Below the pieces are notes generated by a model. That model was not told the origin of the DNA. It worked only from the letters and a program-made list of their open reading frames with translations, and did not search any database. This document shows, piece by piece, positions 532 through 19,926 of a stretch of 60,669 bases of DNA. The DNA comes from Candidatus Sumerlaeia bacterium (GTDB lineage Bacteria > Sumerlaeota > Sumerlaeia > JADFCW01): contig JAOAGV010000013.1 of the NCBI GenBank assembly GCA_026415575.1, positions 1 to 60,669 of the forward strand. Reading direction: 5' to 3'. Position numbers and translations under genes: made by a program. Numbering within the stretch: position 1 is the stretch's first letter; each line of letters starts with the position of its first letter.

Positions 532-2328
532 ATGAAACGAAGGATTGCAATCGCAGCACTTGCGCTAATTGGACTGACGCCGTGCGTTGTTGGCGCAAGC
601 GCGCAGCAAACGTTCAAAGAGATGGTCGGACCGGTGCAGATTGGTCCGGTGACCCAGACCTCGCCGCTCCTTGTGCCGTTCATTACGTGGGGCGGCGACA
701 TGGCGACGTTCTATGCGAACGGCGGGCTGGAAACCCGGCCGGGAACAATCTTTCAGAAGCAGGGTCTGAATCTCAAGCTGACGCCGGGAGACAATTTTGT
801 CCAACAAGTGCGCGACTACCTCGCCGGCAAGACGCCCTTCCTGCGAGGCACGTTTCGCATGATCGGCATGGCCAGCGAGGTCATTGGCAGCGACCCGCGC
901 ACCAAGGGCGTGGTGATTTTGCAGATGACGTGGTCGGCGGGCGATCACCTCGTGGTGCGCAGCCATGTCAAAACCATCAGCGACCTGAAAGGCAAGACAC
1001 TGGTGCTGCAAACCGGCGGCCCGCACGTGGGCATGTTGGACGACATTCTCAAAACCGCGCGGCTGAGCTGGGACGATGTCAAAATTGTCTGGGCCAAGGA
1101 TTTGACCGGCTCACCCGACTGTCCGGCCGAACTTTTCCGGAAAAACCCCAACATAGACGGATGTTTTGCCATCAGTCCCGACATGATCGGACTGTGCGGC
1201 GGCTTGCAGAACACCGGCACGGGCGCCGAGGGCACGGTCAAGGGGGCGCGCGTTCTGGTTTCCACCGCCGAGATGGCGCGCTCGATCGCCGATGTCTATG
1301 TCTGCCGGAAAGATTTTTACGACGCCAACAAAGCCCTGATCACCAAGTTTGTTGCCGGCTATCTCAAGGCGTGCGAAGAGGTGGTCGAACTGAAAAAGGA
1401 ATACGAGAAGAAGGGCTCGCCGGCCTACACGCAGCTTCTGACCCTCACGCAAAGCATCTATGGCAAAGACGTCATTCCGACGCTCGAAGAGGCCCACGGC
1501 CTGCTGTCGGACTGTGTGTTTGTGCATTATCAGGGCAATGTCGAGTTTTTCACGCAGCCCAACAATCTGCACGGGTTCGAAGCATTTCAGAAGTCGGCGC
1601 TCGATCTGGCCGTCGGGCGCGGCTACGCCAAAATCCGCACGGGTCTTTTCCCGTCCGGGCTCGATTACAACTCCCCGGACTTTGTGGGCTACCTGAAGGG
1701 AACGGCCACGGCGGAATTTGTGGACATTCCGGCGGCTCCGGGCGCCAGCGCCGATGCCATCTATGAGTTCAGCGTCAGTTTCGATCCGAACATCACCGAG
1801 TTTGATCCGGTGCGCTACGGCGCGGAGTTCCAGCATGTTGTCGAGACCGCCGACAAATTCGGCAACGCGGTGTTTCTGATTCGCGGCCATTGCGACCCCA
1901 GCAAAGTGTTGTATGAGCTGGTTCAGGCGGGCATGAAAAAGGGTATTTTGCAGCGCACGGGCACGCCGGGCAACTACCGCTATTCGCTGCGGGGCAAGCC
2001 GCTGGACCTTGCGCAGACGGCGGAGATCGTCAAGATGATCGAGGCGGGGGAGTTTGACGGCGTGCCGGAGTTCAATCCGCGGGCGACCTTGCAGGCTGCG
2101 CTGAACATTTCCCAACGGCGGGCCGAAGCCGTGCGCGACGCCATTGTCGCCTATGCCCAGCAGAAAGGTATAAAGATAGACAAGACGCAATTTCAGGCCG
2201 TCGGCGTGGGCGTCCGCGAGCCGTTTATCGCCGTGCCGCGCGACAAGGACCAGATTCGGCAGAACACACGCGCCCAGTTCCGTCTGGTGCGCGTGGCCGC
2301 CGAAATGGACACCGTGCCCGAACTGTAA
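532..2328 (+). CDS. Secreted NMT1/NitT-type substrate-binding protein fused to an OmpA-like domain
   Basis: The product has 598 residues. Start 532 is chosen because GGAGGA lies 8 bases upstream and the sequence then opens with a signal peptide of about 26 residues (MKRRIAIAALALIGL, cleavage near ASA-QQ). Residues about 30-400 resemble a periplasmic substrate-binding protein of the nitrate/sulfonate/taurine class. Residues about 425-590 look like an OmpA domain: a GHCD motif near 450, SQRRAEAVRDAI near 527 and a GVGVREPF motif near 558. OmpA domains bind peptidoglycan, so this receptor may be tethered to the cell wall. It opens a nine-gene same-strand cluster that also encodes a second SBP-OmpA, a third SBP, an ABC permease and an ATPase. 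The ligand cannot be told from sequence. Confidence 0.8.
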   Translation: MKRRIAIAALALIGLTPCVVGASAQQTFKEMVGPVQIGPVTQTSPLLVPFITWGGDMATFYANGGLETRPGTIFQKQGLNLKLTPGDNFVQQVRDYLAGKTPFLRGTFRMIGMASEVIGSDPRTKGVVILQMTWSAGDHLVVRSHVKTISDLKGKTLVLQTGGPHVGMLDDILKTARLSWDDVKIVWAKDLTGSPDCPAELFRKNPNIDGCFAISPDMIGLCGGLQNTGTGAEGTVKGARVLVSTAEMARSIADVYVCRKDFYDANKALITKFVAGYLKACEEVVELKKEYEKKGSPAYTQLLTLTQSIYGKDVIPTLEEAHGLLSDCVFVHYQGNVEFFTQPNNLHGFEAFQKSALDLAVGRGYAKIRTGLFPSGLDYNSPDFVGYLKGTATAEFVDIPAAPGASADAIYEFSVSFDPNITEFDPVRYGAEFQHVVETADKFGNAVFLIRGHCDPSKVLYELVQAGMKKGILQRTGTPGNYRYSLRGKPLDLAQTAEIVKMIEAGEFDGVPEFNPRATLQAALNISQRRAEAVRDAIVAYAQQKGIKIDKTQFQAVGVGVREPFIAVPRDKDQIRQNTRAQFRLVRVAAEMDTVPEL

Positions 2329-2378
2329 AAGCAAAAGTCCACCAACGCTGCACAGGGACGGGTACAAAGGGGAAGACA

Positions 2379-3392
2379 ATGAAACGACAACCGACGGTTT
2401 GGGCCTTTTCGCTCGCGCTGGCGGCACTGCTCATGGCATCCCGCATCGTTCCGGGGCAAAGCGCCGACGAGACGCTGCATCACAACAATGTGATGATTGT
2501 CCTCGACTCGTCGGGCTCGATGGATGAGCGGATGGCCGGAAACATGCGGAAAATTGACGCGGCCAAGAAAGCCTTGATCGAGGTGCTGAATCAGGTGCCG
2601 CCGGACACACACATCGGCCTGTTGGTTTTCAGCGCGCGCAACCTCCAAACGGACTATGTCTATCCCCTCGGCCCGCGCGATGACGCGCGGCTTCGGCAGG
2701 CGATTCTTCAGCCGCAGCCGGGCGGTAATACGCCCCTCGGCGCATACATAAAAAAGGGGGCTGACTACCTGCTCGAACGCCGCGCCAAACAGCGCGGCTA
2801 CGGCACCTACCGGTTGCTCATTGTCACCGACGGCGAGTCCACCGACCAACTCGTGGATCCCTATTTGCCCGACGTATTGGCCCGCGGCATCATCGTGGAC
2901 GTCATCGGCGTCAACATGAAGGCCGACCATACGTTGGCCACGAAGGTGCATTCCTACCGGCGCGCCGACGATCCGGCCTCGCTGCGGCGCGCCGTGGCCG
3001 AAGTATTTGCAGAAGTCAGCGACAAAGACACCGGCATAGCCGACGAAAGCGTGCTGGCGGACATTGCCGCCCTTCCCGAAGAAATGGCAACGGCGATGTT
3101 ACAGGCGCTGTCCAACAGCAGCACGGCCAACCAACCGATCGGAACAAAGACGCCCGCGGCCGTGGAACCAAAGGCACCCGCAGGAGTCCAACCGCCCGCC
3201 TCGAAGGCGCCAACCCGGCCGAAAAGCGCTGCGCCCTCGCGAAGCAGAAAATCCGGCGATACGGCGGACACGCTCAAAACCGCATTCACGGTCATTCTGA
3301 TTGCGGTGATCATAATCATGCTCGCCGCACTGCGTGCGGCCAAAGCCGGCAGCGGCGGGTCCCACCCACGGGGAAGGAGACGCCGTCCATGA
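2379..3392 (+). CDS. Membrane-anchored von Willebrand factor A domain protein
   Basis: The product has 337 residues. An N-terminal signal segment (about 1-28) is followed by a VWA domain at about 36-210. The metal-ion site is intact: DSSGSM near 43, the threonine in GGNTPLGA near 118 and VTDGES near 149. A proline/alanine/lysine-rich linker (about 250-295) leads to one C-terminal transmembrane helix (about 300-322). The domain is thus expected outside the cytoplasmic membrane, with a short cytoplasmic tail. VWA domains usually assemble protein complexes through a bound divalent metal. The next gene starts at 3389 inside this stop codon (ATGA), which points to translational coupling. Confidence 0.85.
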   Translation: MKRQPTVWAFSLALAALLMASRIVPGQSADETLHHNNVMIVLDSSGSMDERMAGNMRKIDAAKKALIEVLNQVPPDTHIGLLVFSARNLQTDYVYPLGPRDDARLRQAILQPQPGGNTPLGAYIKKGADYLLERRAKQRGYGTYRLLIVTDGESTDQLVDPYLPDVLARGIIVDVIGVNMKADHTLATKVHSYRRADDPASLRRAVAEVFAEVSDKDTGIADESVLADIAALPEEMATAMLQALSNSSTANQPIGTKTPAAVEPKAPAGVQPPASKAPTRPKSAAPSRSRKSGDTADTLKTAFTVILIAVIIIMLAALRAAKAGSGGSHPRGRRRRP

Positions 3393-4960
3393 GCGAGCGG
3401 AATCCCAAAGGCTGCCTGCTGGCCGCGCTGATCTGGCTTGTCATTCTCGCTGCGTTGGCGGTCGCGGCGAAGGTATTCCTTCTGCCTGCACTACGGGACA
3501 AATGGGAAAAAAAAGAGGAAGGCTATAAGCACAAAATCCGGCTGGCGGCCGATTCGTTTTCCGGCTATTGCATCCTGCGCTCGGCGGCCATGGCCTATGA
3601 ACTGCGCACGCAGGGAATCAAACTGGTGGTGGAAGACGACAAAGCCGACTACGAAGCGCGCATCAAGGCCCTGCGCAACCGCCAGTTCGAGATGGCCGTC
3701 TTCACGGTGGATTCGCTGGTGCTGACCGGCGCGAAGCTGGGCGAGTTTCCGGCGGTCATTATCGCCGTGATAGATGAAAGCAACGGCGCCGATGCCATCG
3801 TGGCCTATAAGTCCGCCGTGGGGAGTCTTCAGGACCTCGACCATCCGGACGGGCGGTTTGTCCTCACGCCGCAGTCGCCGAGCGAGTTTCTGGCGCGCAT
3901 TGTCAAAGCCGATTTCAACCTGCCGCGCCTGCCGGAGAAGTGGTGGATCGCAGCCGAGGGTGCGTCGGACGTTTTCCGGCAGTTTCGCGCCGCCGACAAG
4001 ACCGCCAAACGCGCCTACGTACTTTGGGAACCCTACGTGTCGAAGGCTCTGGAGATCCCCGATGCCCATGTGTTGCTCGACAGTGCCAAGATCAAGGGCT
4101 ACATTCTGGATGTGCTGGTGGCCGAACGCACATTTCTGGCCGAAAATCCCGCTTTGGTCCGCGCGGTTCTCGAAGCTTATTTTCGCGTCGCCTATGTGTG
4201 GGCGCAAAAAAGCGACGGTATGAAAAGCATGGTCATGGGGGACGCACAGAAAACCGGCACAGAAAGCCTGACCGACGCCCAAGCAGCCAAACTGGTGCAA
4301 GGCATCGAGTGGAAGAGCACTCTGGAAAACTACGCCTATTTCGGCCTGCAGGGCGCGCCGACCACCGGCGGGCCCCCGCCCATTCAGGAGTCCATTACCA
4401 ACATTGCCCGTGTGCTCGTGCAGACGGGTGCGCTGCCGGCCGATGCCATCCTCGGCAGGGAATCTACGCTGTTTTCGGATCAAGTGTTGAAAGCCCTCCT
4501 TGCGGACAAATTTCATCCCGGCCGACGGGCCAACGTCATCAAGGGAGCCGGCATCGAGAGCCTGCCGGCTGAAACGATCCGAACCCGCGGGCCCCTGCGG
4601 GCGCTGAGCGATGCAGAATGGGAAAGCCTGCGACCTGTCGGCCAGGTCAAAGTCGAGGACATCAGTTTTGCACGGGGCGGCGCACGCCTGAGCGAGGAAG
4701 GACAGCGGCGGCTTGATGATCTGGCGCGCAAACTGTCGGCTTGGCCCGAATACTATCTGGTGGTCGAAGGCAATGCGCGCGCGGAAGGCGATCCGGAGGC
4801 AAACCTGCAACTGGCGCAGGAACGGGCGAAGGCGGTAGCCGACTATCTGATTGCCCGCGGTGTAGCGCCGGCGCGGCTTCGCGCCAAAGCGGTTCCGCCG
4901 TCTCTGAAGGAAGGCGCCGCGCAGTCGGTGTCGTTCGTACTAAAACAGTTGCCCTATTAG
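3389..4960 (+). CDS. Membrane-anchored substrate-binding protein fused to an OmpA-like domain
   Basis: The product has 523 residues. It begins with an uncleaved-looking transmembrane helix (about 9-32) followed by a charged stretch. An NMT1-like solute-binding region covers about 45-340. An OmpA-like domain covers about 410-520, with an ISFARGGARLSEEGQ opening and the EGNARAEGDPEANLQLAQ helix entry near 459. Unlike the SBP-OmpA at 532 it is held in the inner membrane, so it could bridge membrane and peptidoglycan. The start overlaps the stop of the VWA gene. The two SBP-OmpA proteins differ enough to be old paralogues rather than a recent duplication. Confidence 0.78.
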   Translation: MSERNPKGCLLAALIWLVILAALAVAAKVFLLPALRDKWEKKEEGYKHKIRLAADSFSGYCILRSAAMAYELRTQGIKLVVEDDKADYEARIKALRNRQFEMAVFTVDSLVLTGAKLGEFPAVIIAVIDESNGADAIVAYKSAVGSLQDLDHPDGRFVLTPQSPSEFLARIVKADFNLPRLPEKWWIAAEGASDVFRQFRAADKTAKRAYVLWEPYVSKALEIPDAHVLLDSAKIKGYILDVLVAERTFLAENPALVRAVLEAYFRVAYVWAQKSDGMKSMVMGDAQKTGTESLTDAQAAKLVQGIEWKSTLENYAYFGLQGAPTTGGPPPIQESITNIARVLVQTGALPADAILGRESTLFSDQVLKALLADKFHPGRRANVIKGAGIESLPAETIRTRGPLRALSDAEWESLRPVGQVKVEDISFARGGARLSEEGQRRLDDLARKLSAWPEYYLVVEGNARAEGDPEANLQLAQERAKAVADYLIARGVAPARLRAKAVPPSLKEGAAQSVSFVLKQLPY

Positions 4961-4985
4961 AAAAGGCGGCCCTATAGTCGGCGGT

Positions 4986-5813
4986 ATGAATGGTGGCAAG
5001 CCAGAGCTGGGATATACGGCCGCGTCGCGCGGCGCCCAACTGGAGGCGGAGATCAAAAAGCGGGTTCTGTGGCAACTGCTGTCCAGTCCCCTGACGCTCG
5101 GCCCTGTGTTGGTGGGCGCGACGGTGCTGGCCGCGCTATGGACGTTCGGGTTGCGGTCGGGCGTGGCAGCGTTCGGCGGCATTGCGGCCATTTTGGCCGG
5201 GATTGGAGTATTCTTTACGCGGCTGTTTCTAAGCAGCGAGGCGCTCATTCGCAAAACCCTCGCCCGAATTCAAAAGGAGGCCCGCGAGCAACACGAAAAG
5301 GCCTTGGACGTTCTGGAAAAGGAGCTTCGTGCAACGGCCGACGACCGCCGCGACGAAACGTGCCTGCGCGATCTTCGGGCGCTGATGAAAGCGTTCGAGG
5401 AAAGCCGACAGTGGTCGGAAACGCTGAATCCGCGCCTGACGTTTGACATTCTCGGCGGCGTGGGACAACTCTTCGACAGCTGTGTGCGCTCGCTGCGAAA
5501 AGCACTTGAACTGTGGCGGACGGCCGAACGCATGTCCACGCGCGAGGCGCGCGTGCCGATCCTCGAACAGCGCAGACGCATCATCGAAGACGTGCAAAAG
5601 AGCGTGACACAGCTGGGGCATCTGTTGGCGGGAGTTCAAAGTCTCGACGCGGACAGCGAGGCGGGCGACTCGGAACTGGCGCGGATTCGCGCCGAACTGG
5701 ACCAAAGCCTTGAAGTGGCCCGACGGGTCGAGCAGCGCATGAAATCGCTGGATTCCGAACTGGGTACAGCACCGGTGCGCACAGCGAGAAATGGCACGGA
5801 AAAAGAGACGTAG
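4986..5813 (+). CDS. Membrane protein with long coiled coil, function unknown
   Basis: The product has 275 residues and is not a family I recognise. Two hydrophobic helices (about 36-56 and 60-80) are followed by a long charged, helical, coiled-coil-like region (about 85-260) rich in Glu, Arg and Leu. The likely topology is a hairpin in the membrane with a cytoplasmic stalk. It lies 25 bases after the SBP-OmpA gene and before the PspA-like gene, so it is a candidate membrane partner for the PspA-like protein or the AAA+ ATPase. No enzymatic motif is seen. Confidence 0.65.
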   Translation: MNGGKPELGYTAASRGAQLEAEIKKRVLWQLLSSPLTLGPVLVGATVLAALWTFGLRSGVAAFGGIAAILAGIGVFFTRLFLSSEALIRKTLARIQKEAREQHEKALDVLEKELRATADDRRDETCLRDLRALMKAFEESRQWSETLNPRLTFDILGGVGQLFDSCVRSLRKALELWRTAERMSTREARVPILEQRRRIIEDVQKSVTQLGHLLAGVQSLDADSEAGDSELARIRAELDQSLEVARRVEQRMKSLDSELGTAPVRTARNGTEKET

Positions 5814-5840
5814 GCTAAAAACCGAACCCATCACGGTTGG

Positions 5841-5953
5841 AGTGAACAGAGTGGACAGAACGGACGGAGTGGATAAGAAGCAGGGCAAAGCAGGAGCACC
5901 GAGTTTTTCGGCCCCTGTTGTCCATTCTGTCCCTGTCGTCCGCTCCGTCCACC
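5841..5953. repeat. Fold-back pair of 9-base-period GGAC/GTCC repeats
   Basis: The left half (5841-5876) is a run of GGAC units spaced 9 bases apart. The right half (5917-5953) is a run of GTCC units with the same spacing, so the halves are inverted copies around a spacer of about 40 bases. The region is intergenic, in the 207-base gap before the PspA-like gene. The same fold-back layout recurs at 60534-60630. Confidence 0.7.
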
Positions 5954-5975
5954 CGCACCGCAAATAAAGGAAAGC

Positions 5976-5991
5976 GCGGGGCCCGCCCCGC
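5976..5991 (+). other. GC hairpin upstream of the PspA-like gene
   Basis: GCGGGG-CCCG-CCCCGC forms a perfect 6-bp stem about 30 bases before the ATG at 6021. No U-run follows, so it is not a clear terminator. It may affect RNA stability or expression within the operon. Confidence 0.35.
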
Positions 5992-6020
5992 CACCCTTCT
6001 CACAAAGGAGAGCCCCGTCC

Positions 6021-6857
6021 ATGTTCAGAGCACTGGGAAGATGGATCAAGGCAGTCATGTATCTGCTGACCGGCCAGATTGACGCCGCGCGCCGAACGCT
6101 GGACACCAACCCCTACGTCCTGCGCGCCAAATATGAGGAGATCATCCGCGAAAAAACCAACCGCATCCAGCAGTACAAACAGGCGGTCGCCGGCCTGATC
6201 GCCCAACAGGAAGACAAACTGGCCAAGGTCAAAACGCTGACCGAAGAGGTGGAAAAACTCGAACGCCTGAAGGCCGGCGCACTGGCCAAAGCCAAGCAGC
6301 GCGTCGAGGCCCTTCAAGCCCAAGGCCGCGACAAGGAGGCCATTCAGCACGATGAAGAGTATATGAAGTGTCTGGCCGCCTACAATGATTTCTCTTCGAC
6401 TCTGGCGGAAAAGCAGGCGCGGATTGCTGAACTCGAACAAGATGTCGAACTCTACGGCACGCGCATCAAAGAACACAAAGTCCAACTTTCCCAGCTGGTC
6501 CGCGAGATCGAACAAATCAAGGCCGAGGCCGTGGATGCCGTCGCCGACATCATCACCGCCCGTCAGGAGCGCGAGCTCGCTGACGCGCTGTCGGGCATTG
6601 CCGAGGACGGCACGGCCAAGGAATTGCAGCGCATGCGCGAGCTGCGCCGCGAGATCAAGGCCGAAGCGCGAATCTCGAAGGAACTCGCCGGCACCGATGC
6701 CCGCGTCCAGGAGCGCGAATTCCTCGAATATGCCCGCACAACCGCCGCCAACGATGAGTTTGAACGGCTGGTGGGTTTGGCGCGTGCTGCTGATGCTTCC
6801 GAAAAATCGGCCGCCGCAGCCCCGCAAGCCGAGAAAAAATCCGCTTTGCCCGAATGA
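6021..6857 (+). CDS. PspA/IM30-like (ESCRT-III family) protein
   Basis: The product has 278 residues and is almost entirely alpha-helical and charged, with an amphipathic N-terminal helix (MFRALGRWIKAVMYLL). It has the long coiled-coil layout of PspA/IM30/Vipp1 proteins. The spacing of an N-terminal amphipathic helix, two long helices (about 40-200) and a polar tail with an Ala/Lys-rich end fits the family. PspA proteins bind stressed membranes on the cytoplasmic side and form ESCRT-III-like polymers. An AAGGAG ribosome site precedes the ATG. Its place between membrane proteins and an ABC importer with an AAA+ ATPase suggests a membrane-remodelling or stress-linked role. The assignment rests on helical pattern and context; a profile search would settle it. 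Confidence 0.6.
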   Translation: MFRALGRWIKAVMYLLTGQIDAARRTLDTNPYVLRAKYEEIIREKTNRIQQYKQAVAGLIAQQEDKLAKVKTLTEEVEKLERLKAGALAKAKQRVEALQAQGRDKEAIQHDEEYMKCLAAYNDFSSTLAEKQARIAELEQDVELYGTRIKEHKVQLSQLVREIEQIKAEAVDAVADIITARQERELADALSGIAEDGTAKELQRMRELRREIKAEARISKELAGTDARVQEREFLEYARTTAANDEFERLVGLARAADASEKSAAAAPQAEKKSALPE

Positions 6858-6919
6858 CCGGATAAGAGATAAACATGTCGTATATCTTCACATCGCGCAG
6901 GATAGAAAGGAGAACCATC

Positions 6920-8008
6920 ATGAAACGGCATTGTTGGGAAATCGCGTTGATCGCAGCCATCGCGCTCCTCGCAACTTTGGGGCTTGGCGAGGCCTTTGGC
7001 GCCGCCGCGCCGACGCCCAGCTTCTCGCTCGCCTGGAGCGAATATCCCTCTTGGAGCACATTTGGCGTCGCCCATGAAATCAAACTCATCAACGGAAAGA
7101 AAGGTGCGCTTGGCCCCATCGAAAAAAAATGGGGCGTGGACATCGAACTCAAGGAGGCCGAATACGACCCGTGTCTGGTCATGTATGGATCGGGCAAGTG
7201 CGATGCCGCCTGCATCACCAACATGGATGCGCTCAATCCGAGTCTAACGCGCCCGTCGGTGGCCATTCTGCCCAATTCGACCAGTTTCGGCGCCGACGCC
7301 CTGATCGTGACCAAGGACATTACGGACATCAAGCAGCTGCGCGGCAAAAAGGTCTATGGACTGGCCAAGACCGTTTCCGAATACTGCTTTGTCCGCAATC
7401 TCGAACTGCTGGGCGAAAATGAAAAGGACTACGTGTTCACCAACATGGACCCCGCCGCCGCCGCCCTCGCCATGCAGCAAAAACAAAGCGGCTTCGACGC
7501 CATCATCGTATGGAATCCCTTCGTTTTGGAAACGCTCAACCGCCGCAAGGATGTGCGCGTGCTCTTCGACTCGACCAGCATCCCCGGCGAGATTATTGAC
7601 ATGGTGGTTGTGGCGCAGGCCTCGCTCGACCAGCCGGGCGGCAAGGCCTTCGCCCTCGCTGTGATTGACACCTACTACGCCATCAATCAACGGCTGGCCG
7701 ATCCGAAGACCGCCGATGAGACACTCATCGCCCTCGGCGAGAAGTTTTCGCATCTCGACTTGCAGTCCATGCGCAAGGTCGTGAAACAAACGCGCTTCTA
7801 CAGCACGCCGGAAGAAGGCCTGAAAATCCTGACAAGCCCGTCCACGCAGGAGATCATGAAGAAGGTCAGCGCGTTCTGCGTCAGCCACGAGATCGTGCCC
7901 AAAGCGCCCACGATTGGTTTCGGCGACAAGACCGCCGCGCCCAACGCCGCCTTCCGGCTCGATCCGACGTATATCGAGGAATACCTCAAACAGGAGAAAT
8001 CGAAGTAA
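6920..8008 (+). CDS. ABC transporter substrate-binding protein (NitT/TauT-like)
   Basis: The product has 362 residues. Start 6920 is chosen over an ATG at 6875 because AAAGGAG precedes it and the protein then begins with a signal peptide (about 1-28, ending near AFGA). The rest resembles periplasmic binding proteins of the NMT1/nitrate-sulfonate group: LAWSEYPSW near the mature N-terminus, then a two-lobed alpha/beta fold with a hinge near the middle. It has no OmpA domain. Its stop lies 4 bases before the permease start, so it is the dedicated receptor of the importer encoded next. Confidence 0.85.
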   Translation: MKRHCWEIALIAAIALLATLGLGEAFGAAAPTPSFSLAWSEYPSWSTFGVAHEIKLINGKKGALGPIEKKWGVDIELKEAEYDPCLVMYGSGKCDAACITNMDALNPSLTRPSVAILPNSTSFGADALIVTKDITDIKQLRGKKVYGLAKTVSEYCFVRNLELLGENEKDYVFTNMDPAAAALAMQQKQSGFDAIIVWNPFVLETLNRRKDVRVLFDSTSIPGEIIDMVVVAQASLDQPGGKAFALAVIDTYYAINQRLADPKTADETLIALGEKFSHLDLQSMRKVVKQTRFYSTPEEGLKILTSPSTQEIMKKVSAFCVSHEIVPKAPTIGFGDKTAAPNAAFRLDPTYIEEYLKQEKSK

Positions 8009-8012
8009 GCCG

Positions 8013-8819
8013 ATGATTCGCAAACCCATTCCCGCGCGCTGGTCGCTGGCTCTCGGAGTCCTGTCGGTCCTCCTTCTTCTTGCCGCCTATACGGGCCTTT
8101 CCCTCTGGCAGCATCATCGCAACCCCGATGATACGACGATTCCGACATGGAGCCAGCTGGGGGCGGGTGTGAAACAGATCATCGAGCCCAATGCACGCGA
8201 TGGCCAGCGGTGGCTTGTCGCCGACGGCAAAGCCACGTTGATTCGCCTGTTCCTCGGTCTTCTGTGCGGCATTGCAGGCGGCATTGTGCTGGGCTTGCTG
8301 ATGGGGTGCTATCCGGTCATCGAAGCCTTGCTGGTGCCTCCGCTTTCGCTGCTGGCCAAGGAGCCGCCGACCGCCATGCTGGCCGTGTTTTTCGTGCTGG
8401 TCGGAACCGACACCGAGATGTATGTGGCGATGATTGCCTTTGGGATTTTGCCTACGCTGAGCCAAACAGTCTATCTGGGTGTTCGCGAGGTGCCGGCCGA
8501 ACTGCTCGACAAGGCCAGCACGCTCGGCGCCTCGCAACTCGAAATCATCTGGAGCATCATTGCGCGGGCGATTTTCCCCAAGATCATTGACGTCGTCCGG
8601 CTGTCCATCGGCCCGGCCATGGTCTATCTGATTGCCGCCGAAATGCTCGTCGGCGACGTGGGGTTCGGCTACCGCATCCGGCTCCATTCGCGGCTGCTCA
8701 ACATGAATGTGGTCTATCCCTATCTGGCGGTTCTGGCCGCCTTTGGCTTTGCCTTGGACTATGCGCTGCGGCTCCTGCAGCGCTATTGCTGCCCGTGGTA
8801 CGTATCGGGCGAAAAATGA
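8013..8819 (+). CDS. ABC transporter permease, NitT/TauT/SsuC-like
   Basis: The product has 268 residues with about six hydrophobic helices. The EAA loop that docks the ATPase is clear at about 168-180 (ELLDKASTLGASQLEI followed by FPKI). This is the binding-protein-dependent inner-membrane component family of nitrate, taurine and alkanesulfonate importers. It starts 4 bases after the SBP stop and ends where the ATPase leader begins. The start at 8013 is chosen over an upstream in-frame start inside the SBP gene. Confidence 0.88.
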   Translation: MIRKPIPARWSLALGVLSVLLLLAAYTGLSLWQHHRNPDDTTIPTWSQLGAGVKQIIEPNARDGQRWLVADGKATLIRLFLGLLCGIAGGIVLGLLMGCYPVIEALLVPPLSLLAKEPPTAMLAVFFVLVGTDTEMYVAMIAFGILPTLSQTVYLGVREVPAELLDKASTLGASQLEIIWSIIARAIFPKIIDVVRLSIGPAMVYLIAAEMLVGDVGFGYRIRLHSRLLNMNVVYPYLAVLAAFGFALDYALRLLQRYCCPWYVSGEK

Positions 8820-8844
8820 TTACTGGTTTGGAGAACCATCCAAC

Positions 8845-8910
8845 TTGTCCACGCCCTCCCTATCGTCGCTATCATCCGCTCCGTCCGCCGATTCCGCTTG
8901 TCCACCCGAA
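8845..8910 (+). repeat. 9-base-period repeat forming the N-terminus of the ABC ATPase
   Basis: TCC triplets recur every 9 bases or so from 8849 to 8904, matching the repeat family seen elsewhere. Here the repeat lies at the start of the ATPase reading frame and codes for a serine/proline-rich lead before the conserved domain. Confidence 0.55.
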
Positions 8911-9858
8911 CCGGACATTGTTCTGGAATGCCGGGACATTCACCATTGGTTCGGCAACAAGCGCGTTCTACATGACATCAACCTGCGGATCGTGCGCGGC
9001 GAAATTGTGGGTCTGGTCGGGCCCAGCGGGTGCGGCAAGTCCACGCTCCTGCGCGCTATTGTTGGCACGCATCCACCGCGCAAAGGCGTTGTGCTCGTAA
9101 GGGCCGCCGGTCAAACGTCGGCCTACGCTGTCGAGGGTCCGGGGCCGGACCGCGGGATCGTGTATCAGCGCTATGCGCTGTTTCCATTTCTTACGGCTCT
9201 GGAAAATGTGGCCTTGGGGCCGATGCTTCATCAAACGACGATCCCCTTCCGGCTGTTGCAGTACCCGTCATGGCGGCAGTTGCGCAGGCGGCATCTCGAC
9301 GAAGCCGCGGCCATCCTGGTCAAGCTGAAACTCGGCGACGCCATGCACCAATACCCGCATCAAATGTCGGGCGGCATGTGCCAGCGCGTGGCGATTGCCC
9401 AGACGCTGATTATGAAGCCGGAAATCCTTCTGCTGGACGAGCCGTTCGGCGCCCTCGACGAGGCCACGCGCGAAGAACTTCAACGCACGCTCCTGACGCT
9501 CTATCAGGAAAATTGTGCGGCCAAGGCCGCCGGGTTGCCCCCGCCCGCCGGCACAATCATCATCGTAACCCACGAGTTGACCGAGGCCTTGTATGTCGGC
9601 GACCGCGTTGTCGGCCTTTCGCCCTATTGGGACTGGAAAGCCGAAGGCTTTACGTCCTGTCCGGGCGCGGCCATTGTCTATGACAAAGTGGCGCGGGTGT
9701 ATCAGCCCGACGAGGAGAAAGACTATGACTCATTCGTTCGGCAGCGCGAAGAAATCCGCCGCGTGGTCTTCGATTCAACCTATTTCCCCTCGCGCGTCGA
9801 AAACCTCACGTTTTGGAACGACGTCCGGCAAGGCAAGGGGGAAGGGGTCCTCAAATGA
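8845..9858 (+). CDS. ABC transporter ATP-binding protein, NitT/TauT-like, TTG start
   Basis: The product has about 337 residues from a TTG at 8845, with a GGAGA ribosome site about 10 bases upstream. An upstream frame overlaps the permease and looks spurious. The nucleotide-binding motifs are complete: Walker A GPSGCGKST near 61, signature MSGGMCQR near 174, Walker B ILLLDEPFG near 194 and the H-loop VTHE near 242. A C-terminal extension of about 70 residues follows. The first 22 or so residues (Ser/Pro/Ala-rich) are written by a stretch of the 9-base-period repeat, so the true start may be further in. The stop overlaps the ATG of the next gene (ATGA). Confidence 0.85.
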   Translation: MSTPSLSSLSSAPSADSACPPEPDIVLECRDIHHWFGNKRVLHDINLRIVRGEIVGLVGPSGCGKSTLLRAIVGTHPPRKGVVLVRAAGQTSAYAVEGPGPDRGIVYQRYALFPFLTALENVALGPMLHQTTIPFRLLQYPSWRQLRRRHLDEAAAILVKLKLGDAMHQYPHQMSGGMCQRVAIAQTLIMKPEILLLDEPFGALDEATREELQRTLLTLYQENCAAKAAGLPPPAGTIIIVTHELTEALYVGDRVVGLSPYWDWKAEGFTSCPGAAIVYDKVARVYQPDEEKDYDSFVRQREEIRRVVFDSTYFPSRVENLTFWNDVRQGKGEGVLK

Positions 9859-11678
9859 AACCGCCTGACTATCCCTTTCTGCGCTCGGCCGGGCGAATCC
9901 TCAACGCCGGCCAAGCCCGCACATTGGTGCTTTCGGGCAACATCCATGATCTGTTCGCCCTGCCCCACGACGGCGGCGCCGTCGAGTATGTCCCGCTGAT
10001 CAACCTCCTGACCGCCCAGTGGAACGTGCCCGATCATATCCTTGTGGTCTATGAACTCAACGGGCCGATTCGCTTCCTCCGGCCGGGCGACCGCGACAAG
10101 GTCCGCGACGCCTGGCTGAAGTGGCGAACCGGCCTCGACAGCAATCAACTGGCCGTCGAGGTCATGCTGTCGTCCGGCAAGGTGCAGGCGGAGCTCGAAC
10201 AGATGCGAAAGACCTTCGACGCCAACCTCAGCGATGCCGTCGGCAATCCCACCATGGCCCTCGAACTCCTGCGGCAACTGTGCCTGTGCTCGCGCAGCAC
10301 GCTGGGCGGCAAGCCGATCCTCCGCGAAGACTTGATTGTTATCATCGAGGGCGCCGACCTTCTGATTCCCGAAGGCGAGATTACTCATCTGTCCGATGCC
10401 GACCGCCATCGCATCAGCATCTGTCAGGACTGGTTCTCCGATCCGGGCTTTATGAACGGCGGCGATTGCGTGACGCTCCTTGCAGAATCGCGCAGCCTGA
10501 TCAACCGGCGTGTCGCGCGGCTGCCCCAAATCATCGAAGTTGCCATTCCTGCGCCCGACGCCGCTCAGCGCGAGCAATTCATCCTCTGGTTTGACGAGCG
10601 CCAGCCACCCGACCGCAAACTGCGCCTGTGGGGCTCGGTCGAAGAACTGGCCAAGCTGACGGCCGGTCTGTCCATTCACGCGCTCATGCAACTGCTCAAA
10701 GGCGCGTGCCACGAAGGGCGGACACTCAGCCCGCAGGATGTGGTGGCCAAAGTTGAAGAGTATATTCAAAGCCAGCTGGGCGAAGAAGTCGTTGAGTTCA
10801 AGAAACCCGGCCACACGCTCGATGCCGTGGTGGGGTTCAGCAAGTTGAAGCGCTTTATCCGCACGGAACTGATCCCGAGATTTCGGGCGAGCGGCCCTGA
10901 AGCGCTGCCCGGCGCGGCGGTGTGCGGTCCCATCGGCGGCGGCAAGACGTTTATCTTCGAGGCCATGGCCAGCGAGCTGGACATCGTGGTCCTGACGCTC
11001 AAAAACATCCGCAGCAAATGGTTCGGCGAAACCGATGTCATCTTCGAGCGCCTGCGCCGTGTGCTCGATGCCCTCGCCAAGGTCGTCATCTTTGTGGACG
11101 AGGCCGATACCCAATTCGGTGGCGTCGGGGCCGACACGCACGAAACCGAACGCCGCTTGACGGGCAAAATTCAGGCGATGATGTCCGACCCGCAGTTGCG
11201 CGGCCGCGTGATCTGGCTCCTGATGACCGCCCGCATTCATCTGCTGTCGCCCGACATCCGGCGGCCCGGCCGTGTCGGGGATTTGATTATTCCCGTCCTC
11301 GACCCCGAAGGCTCCGACCGCGAGGCGTTCCTGCGCTGGACGCTGGAAAAAGTTATGGACCGCGAGCCCGCACCGGAGGAGTTGGAAAAACTAAACCGCG
11401 CGACGGAGAGTTACTCGGCCGCCAGCTTCGCCTCGCTGCGCTCCGAGCTTCGCGCCAAAGCCGCCGTCAAGGGCACGCCGTTGGACTTCGCCGAAATCGC
11501 TGCAATCTTCGACGACCACATCGCACCGGCGATCACCGATACGCGCCGCTATCAGACGCTTCAGGCGCTGGTCAACTGCACGCGCCGCAGCCTTCTGCCC
11601 GACCCCGCCGCCGGCCCAAACGAGCGTCGCGCGTGGGAAGCGGAAATCCGCGCGCTCGAGGCCAAGGGCGTGCGCTGA
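9855..11678 (+). CDS. Tandem AAA+ ATPase, Ycf46-like layout
   Basis: The product has 607 residues. The N-terminal half (about 1-310) resembles a degenerate AAA module: the Walker B region is VIIEGADLL and no clean Walker A is seen. The C-terminal half (about 325-560) is a full AAA module with Walker A GPIGGGKT near 358, Walker B VVIFVDEAD near 411 and an arginine-finger region SPDIRRPGR near 465. The layout of an inactive first module and an active second one recalls Ycf46-type AAA proteins. It is translationally coupled to the ABC ATPase (ATG at 9855 in the stop). A soluble AAA+ next to a PspA-like protein suggests remodelling of that polymer, in the way Vps4 or PspF-like proteins act on ESCRT-III or PspA; this is inference. 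Confidence 0.75.
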   Translation: MKPPDYPFLRSAGRILNAGQARTLVLSGNIHDLFALPHDGGAVEYVPLINLLTAQWNVPDHILVVYELNGPIRFLRPGDRDKVRDAWLKWRTGLDSNQLAVEVMLSSGKVQAELEQMRKTFDANLSDAVGNPTMALELLRQLCLCSRSTLGGKPILREDLIVIIEGADLLIPEGEITHLSDADRHRISICQDWFSDPGFMNGGDCVTLLAESRSLINRRVARLPQIIEVAIPAPDAAQREQFILWFDERQPPDRKLRLWGSVEELAKLTAGLSIHALMQLLKGACHEGRTLSPQDVVAKVEEYIQSQLGEEVVEFKKPGHTLDAVVGFSKLKRFIRTELIPRFRASGPEALPGAAVCGPIGGGKTFIFEAMASELDIVVLTLKNIRSKWFGETDVIFERLRRVLDALAKVVIFVDEADTQFGGVGADTHETERRLTGKIQAMMSDPQLRGRVIWLLMTARIHLLSPDIRRPGRVGDLIIPVLDPEGSDREAFLRWTLEKVMDREPAPEELEKLNRATESYSAASFASLRSELRAKAAVKGTPLDFAEIAAIFDDHIAPAITDTRRYQTLQALVNCTRRSLLPDPAAGPNERRAWEAEIRALEAKGVR

Positions 11679-16965: not shown

Positions 16966-17880
16966 ATGAATACTCCGCTCGAAATTGAAGTTTTCCGCGC
17001 CGGCGACTACGGCTCCAAAGGCATTTACACGCCCGATGCCCTCCGGCAAATCGCCGACGACTACGATCCCGCCGCCCACGAAGCGCCCGTCACGCTCGAC
17101 CATCGCCAAGACGGCCCGGCTTTCGGCTGGGTCGAAAGCCTTCGCACCGGCGGCGACCGCCTGATCGCCCGCCTCAAAGACCTGCACGAATCGCTCCGCG
17201 AGTGGATTCAGCGCGGCGCCTACAAGAAACGCAGTATCGAATTGTATCGCGCCTTTCCCGCCACCGGCCGACCGTATCTGCGCGCCGTGTCATTCCTCGG
17301 CGCCTGTCCACCCGAGGTTAAGGGCCTTGCCGATCCCGTCTTTCGCGAAGACGACGGCGAACACGTCGTCGTCGAGTTTGAGGAACCGCCCGCCGCTTCG
17401 TCCGACCCGTCCGATCCGTCCAACTCCTTCGCGGCCATTGCCCAATTCTGCGAAACCGAACGCCTCGCGGGCCGCATCCTTCCCGCCTGGGAACGCGCCG
17501 GCCTTGCCGCCTTCATGCTCTCGCTTGACTCCGAGACGCCGCGCGTTGAGTCTGCCGACGGCCGCCGGCTCACCTCACTCGAATGGTTCAAGGAATTCCT
17601 CCGCGCCTTGCCGCCCCAAGTGCCCCTGCACGAAATCGCCCCAACCGCCGACAATGGGCACGACACTCCTGTCGTGCACAGAATTGGCAGTGGCACTGCC
17701 GCCGTCCCGCACATGATCGGCGGCGGCAACATTTTTGTCGCAGACCGTGTTCCCAAACCCACTGCCCGCGCGGCCATCCGCCCCGCTTCGCTGGCGCTCC
17801 ACGAACGCGCCCTCGCTTTCTGCCGCCAAAACCCGGCTGTCTCCTACGTCGAAGCGCTGCAAACAGTTTCCCGGTTCTGA
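16966..17880 (+). CDS. Mu I-like phage prohead protease/scaffold
   Basis: The product has 304 residues, preceded by AAGGAG. The N-terminal part matches Mu-like I proteins, in which a maturation protease is followed by a scaffold: TPDALRQIADDYDP near 22-35, APVTLDH near 40 and a serine/aspartate-rich middle. The domain processes phage proheads. The C-terminal scaffold region is proline-rich and holds a short 9-base repeat insert (SDPSDPSN near 146). It is the first of four adjacent head genes. No terminase, portal or tail gene is found nearby, so it belongs to a cassette and not a whole prophage. Confidence 0.78.
   Translation: MNTPLEIEVFRAGDYGSKGIYTPDALRQIADDYDPAAHEAPVTLDHRQDGPAFGWVESLRTGGDRLIARLKDLHESLREWIQRGAYKKRSIELYRAFPATGRPYLRAVSFLGACPPEVKGLADPVFREDDGEHVVVEFEEPPAASSDPSDPSNSFAAIAQFCETERLAGRILPAWERAGLAAFMLSLDSETPRVESADGRRLTSLEWFKEFLRALPPQVPLHEIAPTADNGHDTPVVHRIGSGTAAVPHMIGGGNIFVADRVPKPTARAAIRPASLALHERALAFCRQNPAVSYVEALQTVSRF
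17398..17430 (+). repeat. 9-base-period repeat inside the prohead protease gene
   Basis: TCC units recur every 9 bases and code for SSDPSDPSN in the linker between protease and scaffold. The host-type repeat inside a phage gene suggests long residence in this genome or a phage that evolves in hosts carrying it. Confidence 0.6.
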
Positions 17881-17925
17881 CCCATACGACTCGTCTGACT
17901 TGTCCGACCCGTCCGACTTTTTCAA
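17881..17925 (+). repeat. 9-base-period repeat between protease and decoration genes
   Basis: Units CTGACTTGTCC and GACCCGTCC repeat with 9-base spacing directly after the protease stop codon and before the AAAGGAGG of the next gene. Confidence 0.6.
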
Positions 17926-17948
17926 ACTCACTCGAAAGGAGGACTCCC

Positions 17949-18341
17949 ATGTCCCACTACATCCTCGACAAAGCCTACGCAGTCACCGACACGGGCGGTG
18001 TGCCCGCGTACCGCGTGGTGGTTTGCGGCACCAACGCCGGCGAATGTGCGCTGCCCGGCGCGGCCAACGCGGCGAAAATCCTCGGCGTCACGGTTCATGG
18101 CCAGTCGCTCAAAGGCCAGAACGTCGCCGTCCGAAAGGCCGGCATTGCCCGCGTGACCGCCGCCGGCGCCATTGCCCTTGGCGCCCCCGTCAACATCGCC
18201 GGCACCACCGGCAAGATCAAGGCGATCAGCGAAACCTCGGGCACCAAGATCAACTGTCTCGGTTTCGCGGAGACCGCCGCTTCCGCCGACGGCGACATCA
18301 TCGAGGTCTTCCTCGCCCTCCACGAACGCACCGCGCCGTAA
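17949..18341 (+). CDS. DUF2190-like capsid decoration protein
   Basis: The product has 130 residues. ATG 17949 follows AAAGGAGG. The sequence is Ala/Gly-rich with beta-structure motifs typical of DUF2190 proteins (recombinant/decoration proteins of Mu-like and lambdoid phages): a conserved GVTVHGQSLKGQNVAVRKAG-like core near 50, where the chain turns after the glycines, then AVNIAGTTGKIKA-like strands. These proteins bind the outside of capsids. It sits between protease and major capsid genes, as in Mu-like phages. Confidence 0.72.
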   Translation: MSHYILDKAYAVTDTGGVPAYRVVVCGTNAGECALPGAANAAKILGVTVHGQSLKGQNVAVRKAGIARVTAAGAIALGAPVNIAGTTGKIKAISETSGTKINCLGFAETAASADGDIIEVFLALHERTAP

Positions 18342-18437
18342 GTGCATAGGTCCTATCCTGTAGGTCCTATTGCGCGTATCGCCCAAAGCCATACCCGCTA
18401 CCGCAAAACCGATTTTCCCGGAAAGGATCCCACCCCC

Positions 18438-19379
18438 ATGCCTGAAGCGTCCCAAGTCCACATTGACGCCGCGCTGACCAACGTGTGCGCCGCCTACAGC
18501 AATCCCAATTTCATCGCCGACCTTGTCGCCCCGCCTGTCGCCGTGCGCAAACAGAGCGACCGCTACTTCATCTACGACCCCGACCGCGACCGCTTTCGCG
18601 CCTCCGACGACAAACGTGCCCCGGGCGCCGAGGCCAACGAAGTCAACTTCGCCCTCAGCACCGACAGCTACTACTGCGAGGATCACGCACTGGCCTCTGT
18701 CATTCCCGACGAGGAGCGCGAAAACGCCGACCCGCCCATTCAGCCCGAAATTGACCGCGTCGAGTTCCTTATGGAGAAAATGCTCCTCAACAAGGAGATT
18801 CTCCTCGCCGACCGCATCACCGCCGGCACGGACATTCCGGGCGAAACCCTCAGCGGCAACGCCCAGTGGAGCGACTACCAAAACAGCGATCCGGTCGCGG
18901 AGGTCGAAAATCACAAAGCCACCATCCAGGCCGCCGTCCAAGTCGCCCCAAACACCCTCGTCCTTGCCTATGATGTTTATACGAAGGTGCGGCTTCATCC
19001 CAAAGTCGTCGAGCGCAATCCGTCCCTGAAGATCGGCGCAGCCGACACGGGCGACCTCGAAAAGATGTTCGGCGTAGAGCGCGTTCTCGTCGCCCGCGCA
19101 CTCAAAAACGTCGCCGCGGCCGGCCAGACCGCCTCGATGCAATACGTCTGGGGCAAGAACGCCTTCCTTTGCTACATTCCGCCCCGACCGGCACCCAAGC
19201 GCGTGGCCTTTGCCTATTCGTTTGTCTGGACGCTGGCTCCCGGCAGCGTTGCCGGCCACGTCGTGGAAGTCTGGCGCGACAACGCCCGCAAAGCCGACAT
19301 GTTGCGCGTCCAGCGCTACTACGACCAGAAGGTCATTGCCCCCGGCGCCATTTATCTCTGGAAAGCTGCTGTCGCCTAG
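18438..19379 (+). CDS. Phage major capsid protein
   Basis: The product has 313 residues. The start 18438 has a GGAAAGG site upstream; an earlier in-frame start at 18342 has no ribosome site. An acidic/aromatic N-terminal arm (YFIYDPDRDRFR near 48-60) and an HK97-type alternation of helices and strands fit a Mu T-like or similar major capsid subunit. Its place right after the decoration gene and before a gp36-like gene supports this. It looks intact. Confidence 0.72.
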   Translation: MPEASQVHIDAALTNVCAAYSNPNFIADLVAPPVAVRKQSDRYFIYDPDRDRFRASDDKRAPGAEANEVNFALSTDSYYCEDHALASVIPDEERENADPPIQPEIDRVEFLMEKMLLNKEILLADRITAGTDIPGETLSGNAQWSDYQNSDPVAEVENHKATIQAAVQVAPNTLVLAYDVYTKVRLHPKVVERNPSLKIGAADTGDLEKMFGVERVLVARALKNVAAAGQTASMQYVWGKNAFLCYIPPRPAPKRVAFAYSFVWTLAPGSVAGHVVEVWRDNARKADMLRVQRYYDQKVIAPGAIYLWKAAVA

Positions 19380-19396
19380 AAAGACAAGACAGGGAA

Positions 19397-19479
19397 AAAG
19401 ACGGAATGGGCGCAGAGACTGACAAGGGGCCAAACGGAACCTCTCTGCCCGGCTCGTTCACCCCGTCCATTCCGTCCTT
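19397..19479. repeat. Fold-back repeat with 9-base-type ends
   Basis: GACGGAATGG (19400-19409) and CCATTCCGTC (19467-19476) are perfect inverted copies. A second inner pair (GCAGAGA, 19412-19418, with TCTCTGC, 19442-19448) makes a branched stem. It lies between the capsid gene and the gp36-like gene. Confidence 0.6.
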
Positions 19480-19502
19480 TCTTCCCCCGGAGGCTCTTTC
19501 CC

Positions 19503-19926
19503 ATGTATTGCACCCAAGCCGATCTCGAACAGCGCCTCGATCCGCAAGTCCTTCGTGCTCTGGCCGACGATGACCAAGATGGTCTGGCCGACACCGCCGT
19601 CATCGGGGCCGCTATTGCCGACGCCGGTGCGCTCATTGATGCACGTCTTCACGCACGCTACTCTGTTCCCTTCGATCCTGCGCCCGAAATCATCCGCGCC
19701 GTCGCCGCCGCCCTCGCCATCTATCTGCTCCTGACGCGCCGCCACGACTCCGCCCCCGCCGAGCACCGTCGCCGCTACGAAACCGCCCTCGCCCTGTCTC
19801 GAACAACTGGCCAGCGGCCGGGTCGCGCTCGACGCTGCGCAAGGCGACACATCCACCCACCCTCCCCGCTCCAGCCGCGCAGGCGATGAGCGCTGCTTTC
19901 CCGATGATTTGTTGGAGAATTTCTGA
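19503..19926 (+). pseudogene. Mu gp36-like (DUF1320) gene broken by a +1 frameshift
   Basis: ATG 19503 opens a gp36/DUF1320-type frame (MYCTQADLEQRLDPQVLRAL, then a VPFDPAPEIIRAVAAALA block). These small proteins connect head and tail. Near 19797 (CTCGCCCTGTCTCGAAC) the frame goes off into Arg-rich codons. One base earlier or later, a second frame gives LEQLASGRVALDAAQGDTST and ends DDLLENF before the stop at 19924, which fits the expected C-terminus. A single extra base in the T/C run explains this. It is either decay of the remnant, a sequencing error or, less likely, programmed frameshifting. Confidence 0.75.

Follow-up and report, generated by a model that had tools for sequence, protein, structure and literature searches.

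A set of nine adjoining genes (g1-g9) lies at positions 532-11678 of a 60,669-nucleotide contig from a Candidatus Sumerlaeia bacterium (JAOAGV010000013.1, GenBank assembly GCA_026415575.1; this whole stretch is called the window below), and the same set recurs in bacteria of at least six phyla and in the genomes of huge phages. It joins an ATP-binding cassette (ABC) permease and ATPase (g7, g8) and three substrate-binding proteins (SBPs; g1, g3 and g6), two of them carrying OmpA-like domains, to a VWA protein (g2), a membrane protein (g4), a PspA/Vipp1-type protein (g5) and an AAA+ ATPase (g9). We tentatively propose, at not quite an even chance, that the nine genes encode one envelope-guarding ABC/ESCRT-III-like machine, the phage copies of which would protect or service the occupied cell.

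All nine open reading frames (ORFs) are on the plus strand of the window, a whole contig of a genome of 4.67 Mb (Table 1). Except for the score of g5 and a second AAA+ domain in g9 (see below), the Pfam and NCBIfam profile searches from which the families were assigned agree with the protein kinds listed in an initial annotation made from the letters of the window; of the "several" ATGA overlaps mentioned there, two are present (g2/g3 and g8/g9), while the remaining intergenic gaps measure 4-207 bp and g7 and g8 overlap too if the modelled g8 start is correct.

In a g9-profile scan of 84,980 species genomes 208 loci were confirmed, and 80 of these were retained (taxon names are those given by the submitters). 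As the initial annotation had expected of related genomes, the gene order is kept: g1-g9 are collinear on one strand in 23 loci, the window included, from at least six phyla, with titles naming Sumerlaeota, Verrucomicrobiota, Thermodesulfobacteriota ("Desulfosudis" and "Desulforapulum" metagenome-assembled genomes, MAGs), Acidobacteriota, candidate division CSSED10-310, Hydrogenedentota and a "Proteobacteria" bin. The nearest relative with a name, judged by g9, is a Sumerlaeota MAG (95% identity) and identity outside the genus is about 57-71%; recurrence of the same order at this distance is not due to chance. A Myxococcota-labelled locus (L024) has the whole set except g6, and in two Verrucomicrobia loci g6 and g7 are separated by a sulfatase-like gene that is read from the other strand (L067, 6661-8085; L071, 6598-8022). 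The flanks are lineage-specific (for instance, ribosomal protein operons in marine Verrucomicrobia), with no tenth shared gene among those of the collinear loci and no conserved catabolic neighbour that would fix a substrate. AAA+ matches on Paenibacillus plasmids have an unrelated neighbourhood and were set aside, as was assignment to a defence system, the PADLOC matches being to generic ATPase and coiled-coil proteins.

The g5 protein of the window, called PspA/IM30-like in the initial annotation, falls below the PF04012 (PspA_IM30) cut-off, whereas 43 of 54 orthologues match at E<=0.1 and one (L080, 36.8 bits) exceeds the cut-off. In a profile search of the PDB sequences with g5, Vipp1/PspA came top, but at no better than E 0.007. 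Helices 0 to 5 are all present in the AlphaFold2 model (pLDDT 80), and its nine best PDB folds in Foldseek are all Vipp1 (E 1.9e-4 to 1e-2) with modest TM-scores (0.34-0.54), as expected if the hinges between the long helices differ. A strong amphipathic character marks helix 0 (hydrophobic moment muH 0.60, shuffle p 0.0055). Taken together, sequence and model support g5 as a PspA/Vipp1-type protein at the family level. Elsewhere in the genome of the window (L001) there is a gene for a canonical PspA (132 bits). The neighbouring g4 protein, two transmembrane (TM) segments followed by a helical bundle for which a fold search found no known relatives, is a candidate membrane platform. The fold search gave no ESCRT-III match, so that g4 was rejected as a Snf7/ESCRT-III homologue, and it has no similarity to the TM coiled-coil protein of the distant variant described below.

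The two OmpA-like domains differ at the peptidoglycan-binding site, which in this family we take to be marked by a conserved Asp and Arg. In g1 the Asp (GHxDP) and the Arg (NLSxxRAE) of the predicted site are kept in 21 of 21 aligned copies; in g3, named "phosphate ABC transporter substrate-binding/OmpA family protein" by NCBI, another residue stands in place of the Asp in each of the 25 aligned bacterial copies, with the Arg retained. The phage and Vibrio-plasmid copies that were read follow the same rule wherever the motif is readable. The search pattern itself accounts in part for the Asp of 31/31 phage SBP-OmpA copies in a further set, which is left out of the evidence. Because g1 has both residues and g3 is without the Asp, g1 is likely the wall anchor, and g3 is likely held by its N-terminal TM segment. 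The "wall-tethered receptor set" of the initial annotation stands, then, for g1 but not for g3. The MIDAS of g2 (DxSGS, T, D) is intact across aligned copies. With its signal-like N-terminal part and a TM segment at the C-terminus, the g2 protein is predicted to be periplasmic and anchored in the inner membrane. The stand-alone SBP g6 has counterparts in three phage loci (L108, L109 and L111) with lipobox-like N-termini (e.g., MLGC), unlike g6 of the window.

SBP, permease and ATPase are all of NitT/TauT-type families and keep their motifs intact, solute transport itself being only predicted. In g8, Walker A, the SGGM signature, Walker B and the H-loop are all present, followed by a C-terminal extension of about 80 amino acids. 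An improbable alternative is a non-transporting, FtsEX-like ABC core that passes ATP-driven force to VWA/OmpA-anchored SBPs, remodelling or monitoring the wall, with the PspA protein as its cytoplasmic arm. The wall-binding residues of g1, the anchoring of the VWA protein in the membrane and an SBP-OmpA whose wall site is degenerate would fit such an adaptor chain; the permease, however, is an ordinary TauC-type importer subunit and not FtsX-like, and the SBP domains are strongly conserved. The g9 protein is a CDC48-like AAA+ ATPase. Its C-terminal AAA+ domain, the only one demonstrable, looks active (GPIGGGKT, DEAD, RPGR); the N-terminal 315 amino acids are conserved, yet match no AAA profile and do not align to the C-terminal half, so that the second domain of the "tandem AAA+" reading is at most putative. 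A MoxR-VWA pair is rejected, since g9 is not of the MoxR clade and g2, with its signal-like N-terminus and C-terminal TM segment, is not predicted to be cytoplasmic.

Collinear copies were found in huge phages. The 595,163-bp phage genome LR756511.1, retrieved by tblastn with a Vibrio SBP-OmpA, carries g1-g8 in order (g1 776, g3 550, g6 427, g8 384, g7 328 and g5 300 bits) together with a T4-type major capsid protein Gp23 (E 5e-87) and a terminase large subunit (TerL, E 4e-6). Among IMG/VR contigs, g1-g9 are collinear in one of 436 kb with a Gp23-like capsid protein (E 1e-16) and in one of 299 kb with Gp23 (E 1.7e-83) and TerL (E 6.7e-11); a 94-kb contig also has g1-g9, a 494-kb contig g2-g8, and contigs of 65-107 kb partial copies. 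Scanning viral sequences with just the Vibrio SBP-OmpA as query returned nothing, whereas alignment queries did find copies. Extra ORFs between g8 and g9 are usual in the phage loci, and the phage copies retain the catalytic motifs. The g3 tree joins the PspA-type phage copies in a single clade (support 100), so that they are no recent capture from a sampled bacterium, and in the g1 tree the bacteria fall on one side (support 93); the two trees do not show whether the genes passed from bacteria to phages or the other way.

A shorter, five-gene form consists of P1 (about 220 amino acids, matching no known family), a TM-PspA-like protein, an SBP-OmpA, a permease and an ATPase. The TM-PspA-like protein matches PF04012 at E 2.9e-6 in L142 (27.5 bits, below the cut-off). 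All five genes are present in the 735-kb phage LR756501.1 (L159) and in Prevotella phage Lak-A1 (L158, translated with code 15), and the form recurs in further viral contigs. Of ten further large IMG/VR contigs, five have a match to the Gp23 or the terminase profile, and with these two profiles no hallmark was found in the other five. Cultured Bacillus phage G (L157), which also has this form, encodes the permease gp243, the ATPase gp245, gp246, gp247 and the SBP-OmpA proteins gp249/gp250; gp247 has a TM segment and is PspA-like, matching PF04012 at E 0.049 only. In INPHARED (50,697 records) the SBP-OmpA of the 735-kb phage matched 19 records, a count of carriers alone, all of at least 497 kb: the 735-kb genome twice, 15 of 15 Lak records and phage G twice.

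In a third form TelA occupies exactly the position of g5 (PF05816, 171 bits; 229 bits in the 545-kb contig). It is carried by the Vibrio megaplasmids pSEA2, pAM7 and pIFO15640 (L105-L107) and by a 545-kb phage contig (L120, TerL E 1e-5), the only loci with TelA, which is absent from the window operon. All of these have homologues of g1, g2, g3, g6, g7 and g8, which in pSEA2 score 333 (g1), 122 (g2), 271 (g3), 137 (g6), 185 (g7) and 239 bits (g8), the g4 of this form is homologous to the window-type g4 (hhalign E 4e-7), and gene order differs from that of the window mainly in the place of the ATPase gene. No g9/AAA+ gene is found beside TelA at the Vibrio or 545-kb contig loci. TelA can replace g5/g9 in the set; profile comparison shows no homology between g5 and TelA.

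The strongest rival, which we regard as unlikely, is that the set is mainly a nutrient importer whose three SBPs gather a small nitrogen-, sulfur- or guanidine/urea-like solute for the TauC-type permease, the PspA/AAA+ part only sealing the membrane around the transporter; phages, whose genomes are very large, would keep it as an auxiliary metabolic module. Besides the NitT/TauT-type families, this reading draws on the third SBP of the TelA form, which passes the cut-off of the "putative urea" SBP family TIGR03427 (414 and 439 against 333.9 bits), on the five-gene phage form, which retains exactly SBP-OmpA, permease and ATPase plus a PspA-like protein, and on PHROGs, which places the ATPase under auxiliary metabolism/host takeover. 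The g6 proteins of the PspA form, however, stay far under the same cut-off (132-154 bits), no conserved catabolic gene adjoins the set, Rfam matched no riboswitch, for guanidine or otherwise, in the five loci searched, and plain importers have no need of VWA, AAA+ and wall-anchored receptors.

For the envelope-guarding machine we infer a physical complex in which the ABC core g7/g8 would be served by three receptors, soluble g6, membrane-anchored g3 and wall-held g1, with the periplasmic g2 as a metal-dependent adaptor tying receptors to core. On the cytoplasmic side g4 might be the membrane platform for a g5 polymer that would bind the inner leaflet via its amphipathic helix 0, and g9 would remodel or recycle g5 using ATP. 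Ligand-driven cycling of the ABC core would be coupled to g5 assembly, and uptake or sensing at the wall would thereby keep the inner membrane sealed and control what crosses it. Sensing, envelope repair or uptake control, the functions suggested in the initial annotation, are likewise inferred. In huge phages the set may shield or maintain the infected cell, perhaps against other phages that would superinfect it. This proposal is supported by the persistence of the g1-g9 order in 23 loci despite lineage-specific flanks, by the PspA-type fold of g5 with its amphipathic helix 0, by the collinear phage copies, which lie in contigs with capsid or terminase genes and keep the catalytic motifs, and by the TelA swap, given the proposal of Iyer et al. 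2021 (PMC7824862) that TelA blocks phage entry. Weighing against it, g9 is not detectable in LR756511.1, the parts are separable, as Poribacteria and a few others have a reduced form with the g5-g9 pair and no transporter, and the protective role in phages would follow by analogy with TelA and with PspA elsewhere.

The lone g5-g9 pair and the second, true PspA of the genome would also suit two independent modules that are merely co-transcribed, a PspA-AAA+ pair and an ABC importer with its receptors. We consider this quite improbable: g5 sits between g4 and g6 in bacteria and phages alike, TelA takes exactly the g5 position, and in other phages SBP-OmpA, permease and ATPase are once more joined by a PspA-like protein. 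A wider claim, that a PspA/TelA-linked ABC-SBP-OmpA machine with interchangeable PspA-like/TelA coat parts is recurrent in the largest phages (735-kb, Lak, G, 595-kb) and several bacterial phyla, and maintains the envelope of the infected cell through long infections or excludes rival phages, is possible but rather doubtful. Phages equipped with complete sets for ABC import, wall reception and membrane remodelling would strikingly illustrate how viruses can rebuild the envelope of their host. Cultured Bacillus phage G makes the role testable now, and the PspA-to-TelA swap is a testable clue to the function of TelA.

Several loci hold related but distinct arrangements. A distant variant with PspA, AAA+ and ATPase genes occurs in L019, L021 and L022 (the class of the window) and in L138 (a 186-kb viral contig); its PspA is clearer (43-48 bits to PF04012 in L019/L021), some copies have the permease, a TM coiled-coil protein and SBP-OmpA, and L138 also has a VWA gene. 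L017 and L018, which have no SBP or permease genes, carry a g9-type AAA+ gene beside one for a g5-like coiled-coil protein, and in L017 a protein-kinase-like gene precedes them. In L016 (9596-14157) NfeD-like and flotillin-like genes adjoin the g5/g9 pair, recalling PspA/band-7 links. About 5 kb downstream of the operon, the window (16966-19889, plus strand) has Mu-like phage head genes, probably a prophage remnant, of which the major head protein was the sole ORF profiled.

Table 1. Genes of the nine-gene set and Mu-like head genes in the window
Feature	Position	Strand	Product	Profile evidence or remark
g1	532-2328	+	secreted SBP (NitT/TauT type)-OmpA-like fusion	NMT1 31.4 bits (above cut-off); OmpA weak, 16.8 bits
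g2	2379-3392	+	VWA protein	VWA 53.7 bits; complete MIDAS
g3	3389-4960	+	N-terminal TM anchor, SBP, OmpA-like domain	OmpA 51.1 bits; TIGR03427 53 bits
g4	4986-5813	+	two N-terminal TM segments, cytoplasmic helical bundle	matches no family
g5	6021-6857	+	divergent PspA/Vipp1 (ESCRT-III superfamily) protein	PspA_IM30 14.2 bits, cut-off 33.9
g6	6875-8008	+	stand-alone periplasmic SBP	TIGR03427 nearest, 153 bits; alternative start 6920 possible
g7	~8013-8819	+	TauC-type ABC permease	BPD_transp_1 52 bits; NCBIfam TauC E 9e-23
g8	~8761-9858	+	ABC ATPase	ABC_tran 108 bits; start codon uncertain
g9	9855-11678	+	AAA+ ATPase	one AAA domain, 57 bits
Mu-like head gene	16966-17880	+	protease/scaffold-like ORF
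Mu-like head gene		+	small head protein-like ORF	listed between the 16966-17880 ORF and the major head protein
Mu-like head gene	18342-19379	+	major head protein	phrog_1005 E 1.3e-74
Mu-like head gene	19503-19889	+	gp36-like ORF

The initial annotation rightly noted that PspA neighbourhoods had been surveyed. This very type was described by Ravi et al. 2024 (PMC11237479), who in one sentence name long bacterial operons of PspA/Snf7-TM, a two-AAA+ protein, ABC ATPase, permease and PBPB-OmpA (e.g., OGG56892.1), the N-terminal AAA domain being inactive and a Snf7 homologue with TM one that "may occur"; they propose in general that membrane remodelling is linked to solute transport and give no mechanism. 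The operon of the window likewise brings together PspA, AAA+ of the same type, ABC ATPase, permease and SBP-OmpA, but only the C-terminal AAA domain was detected in g9, and g4 has TM segments without an ESCRT-III fold match. The main text of that paper is silent on the VWA gene, three SBPs, the fixed nine-gene order, phages and TelA.

The phage-shock and Vipp1-PspA systems resemble g5 in the layout of helices 0-5, Vipp1 being the nearest fold; the window set differs in having no PspB/C/F, in its AAA+ and ABC transporter partners and in a g5 below the Pfam cut-off. With the NitT/TauT importers (TauABC, SsuABC, the TIGR03427 SBP) it has the SBP, permease and ATPase families in common, but it differs by its three SBPs (two of them OmpA-like fusions) and by the VWA protein, g4, g5 and g9. 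For the Ter/TelA stress and superinfection systems of jumbo phages, Iyer et al. 2021 (PMC7824862) proposed that TelA and the TerF VWA protein build structures beneath the membrane that act against superinfection. The Vibrio/545-kb-phage form is alike in having TelA next to a VWA gene, but the loci read show no TerB/C/D. PspA, OmpA and transporters are not mentioned in that survey, nor in a 2026 jumbo-phage review (PMC13282480), and Al-Shayeb et al. 2020 (PMC7162821) speak of membrane or surface proteins in general terms only. The phage G proteins gp243 (permease), gp245 (ATPase) and gp249 and gp250 (both SBP-OmpA) share their families with the window set; their annotation goes no further than "ABC-like transporter permease", "ABC transporter" and "OmpA/MotB domain", with the SBP part and the TM-PspA-like gp247 unnamed. 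The bacterial operon type is already known as a prediction, of which the one line is now a defined nine-gene unit; new here are the huge-phage copies, the five-gene phage form, the TelA swap and the OmpA asymmetry between g1 and g3.

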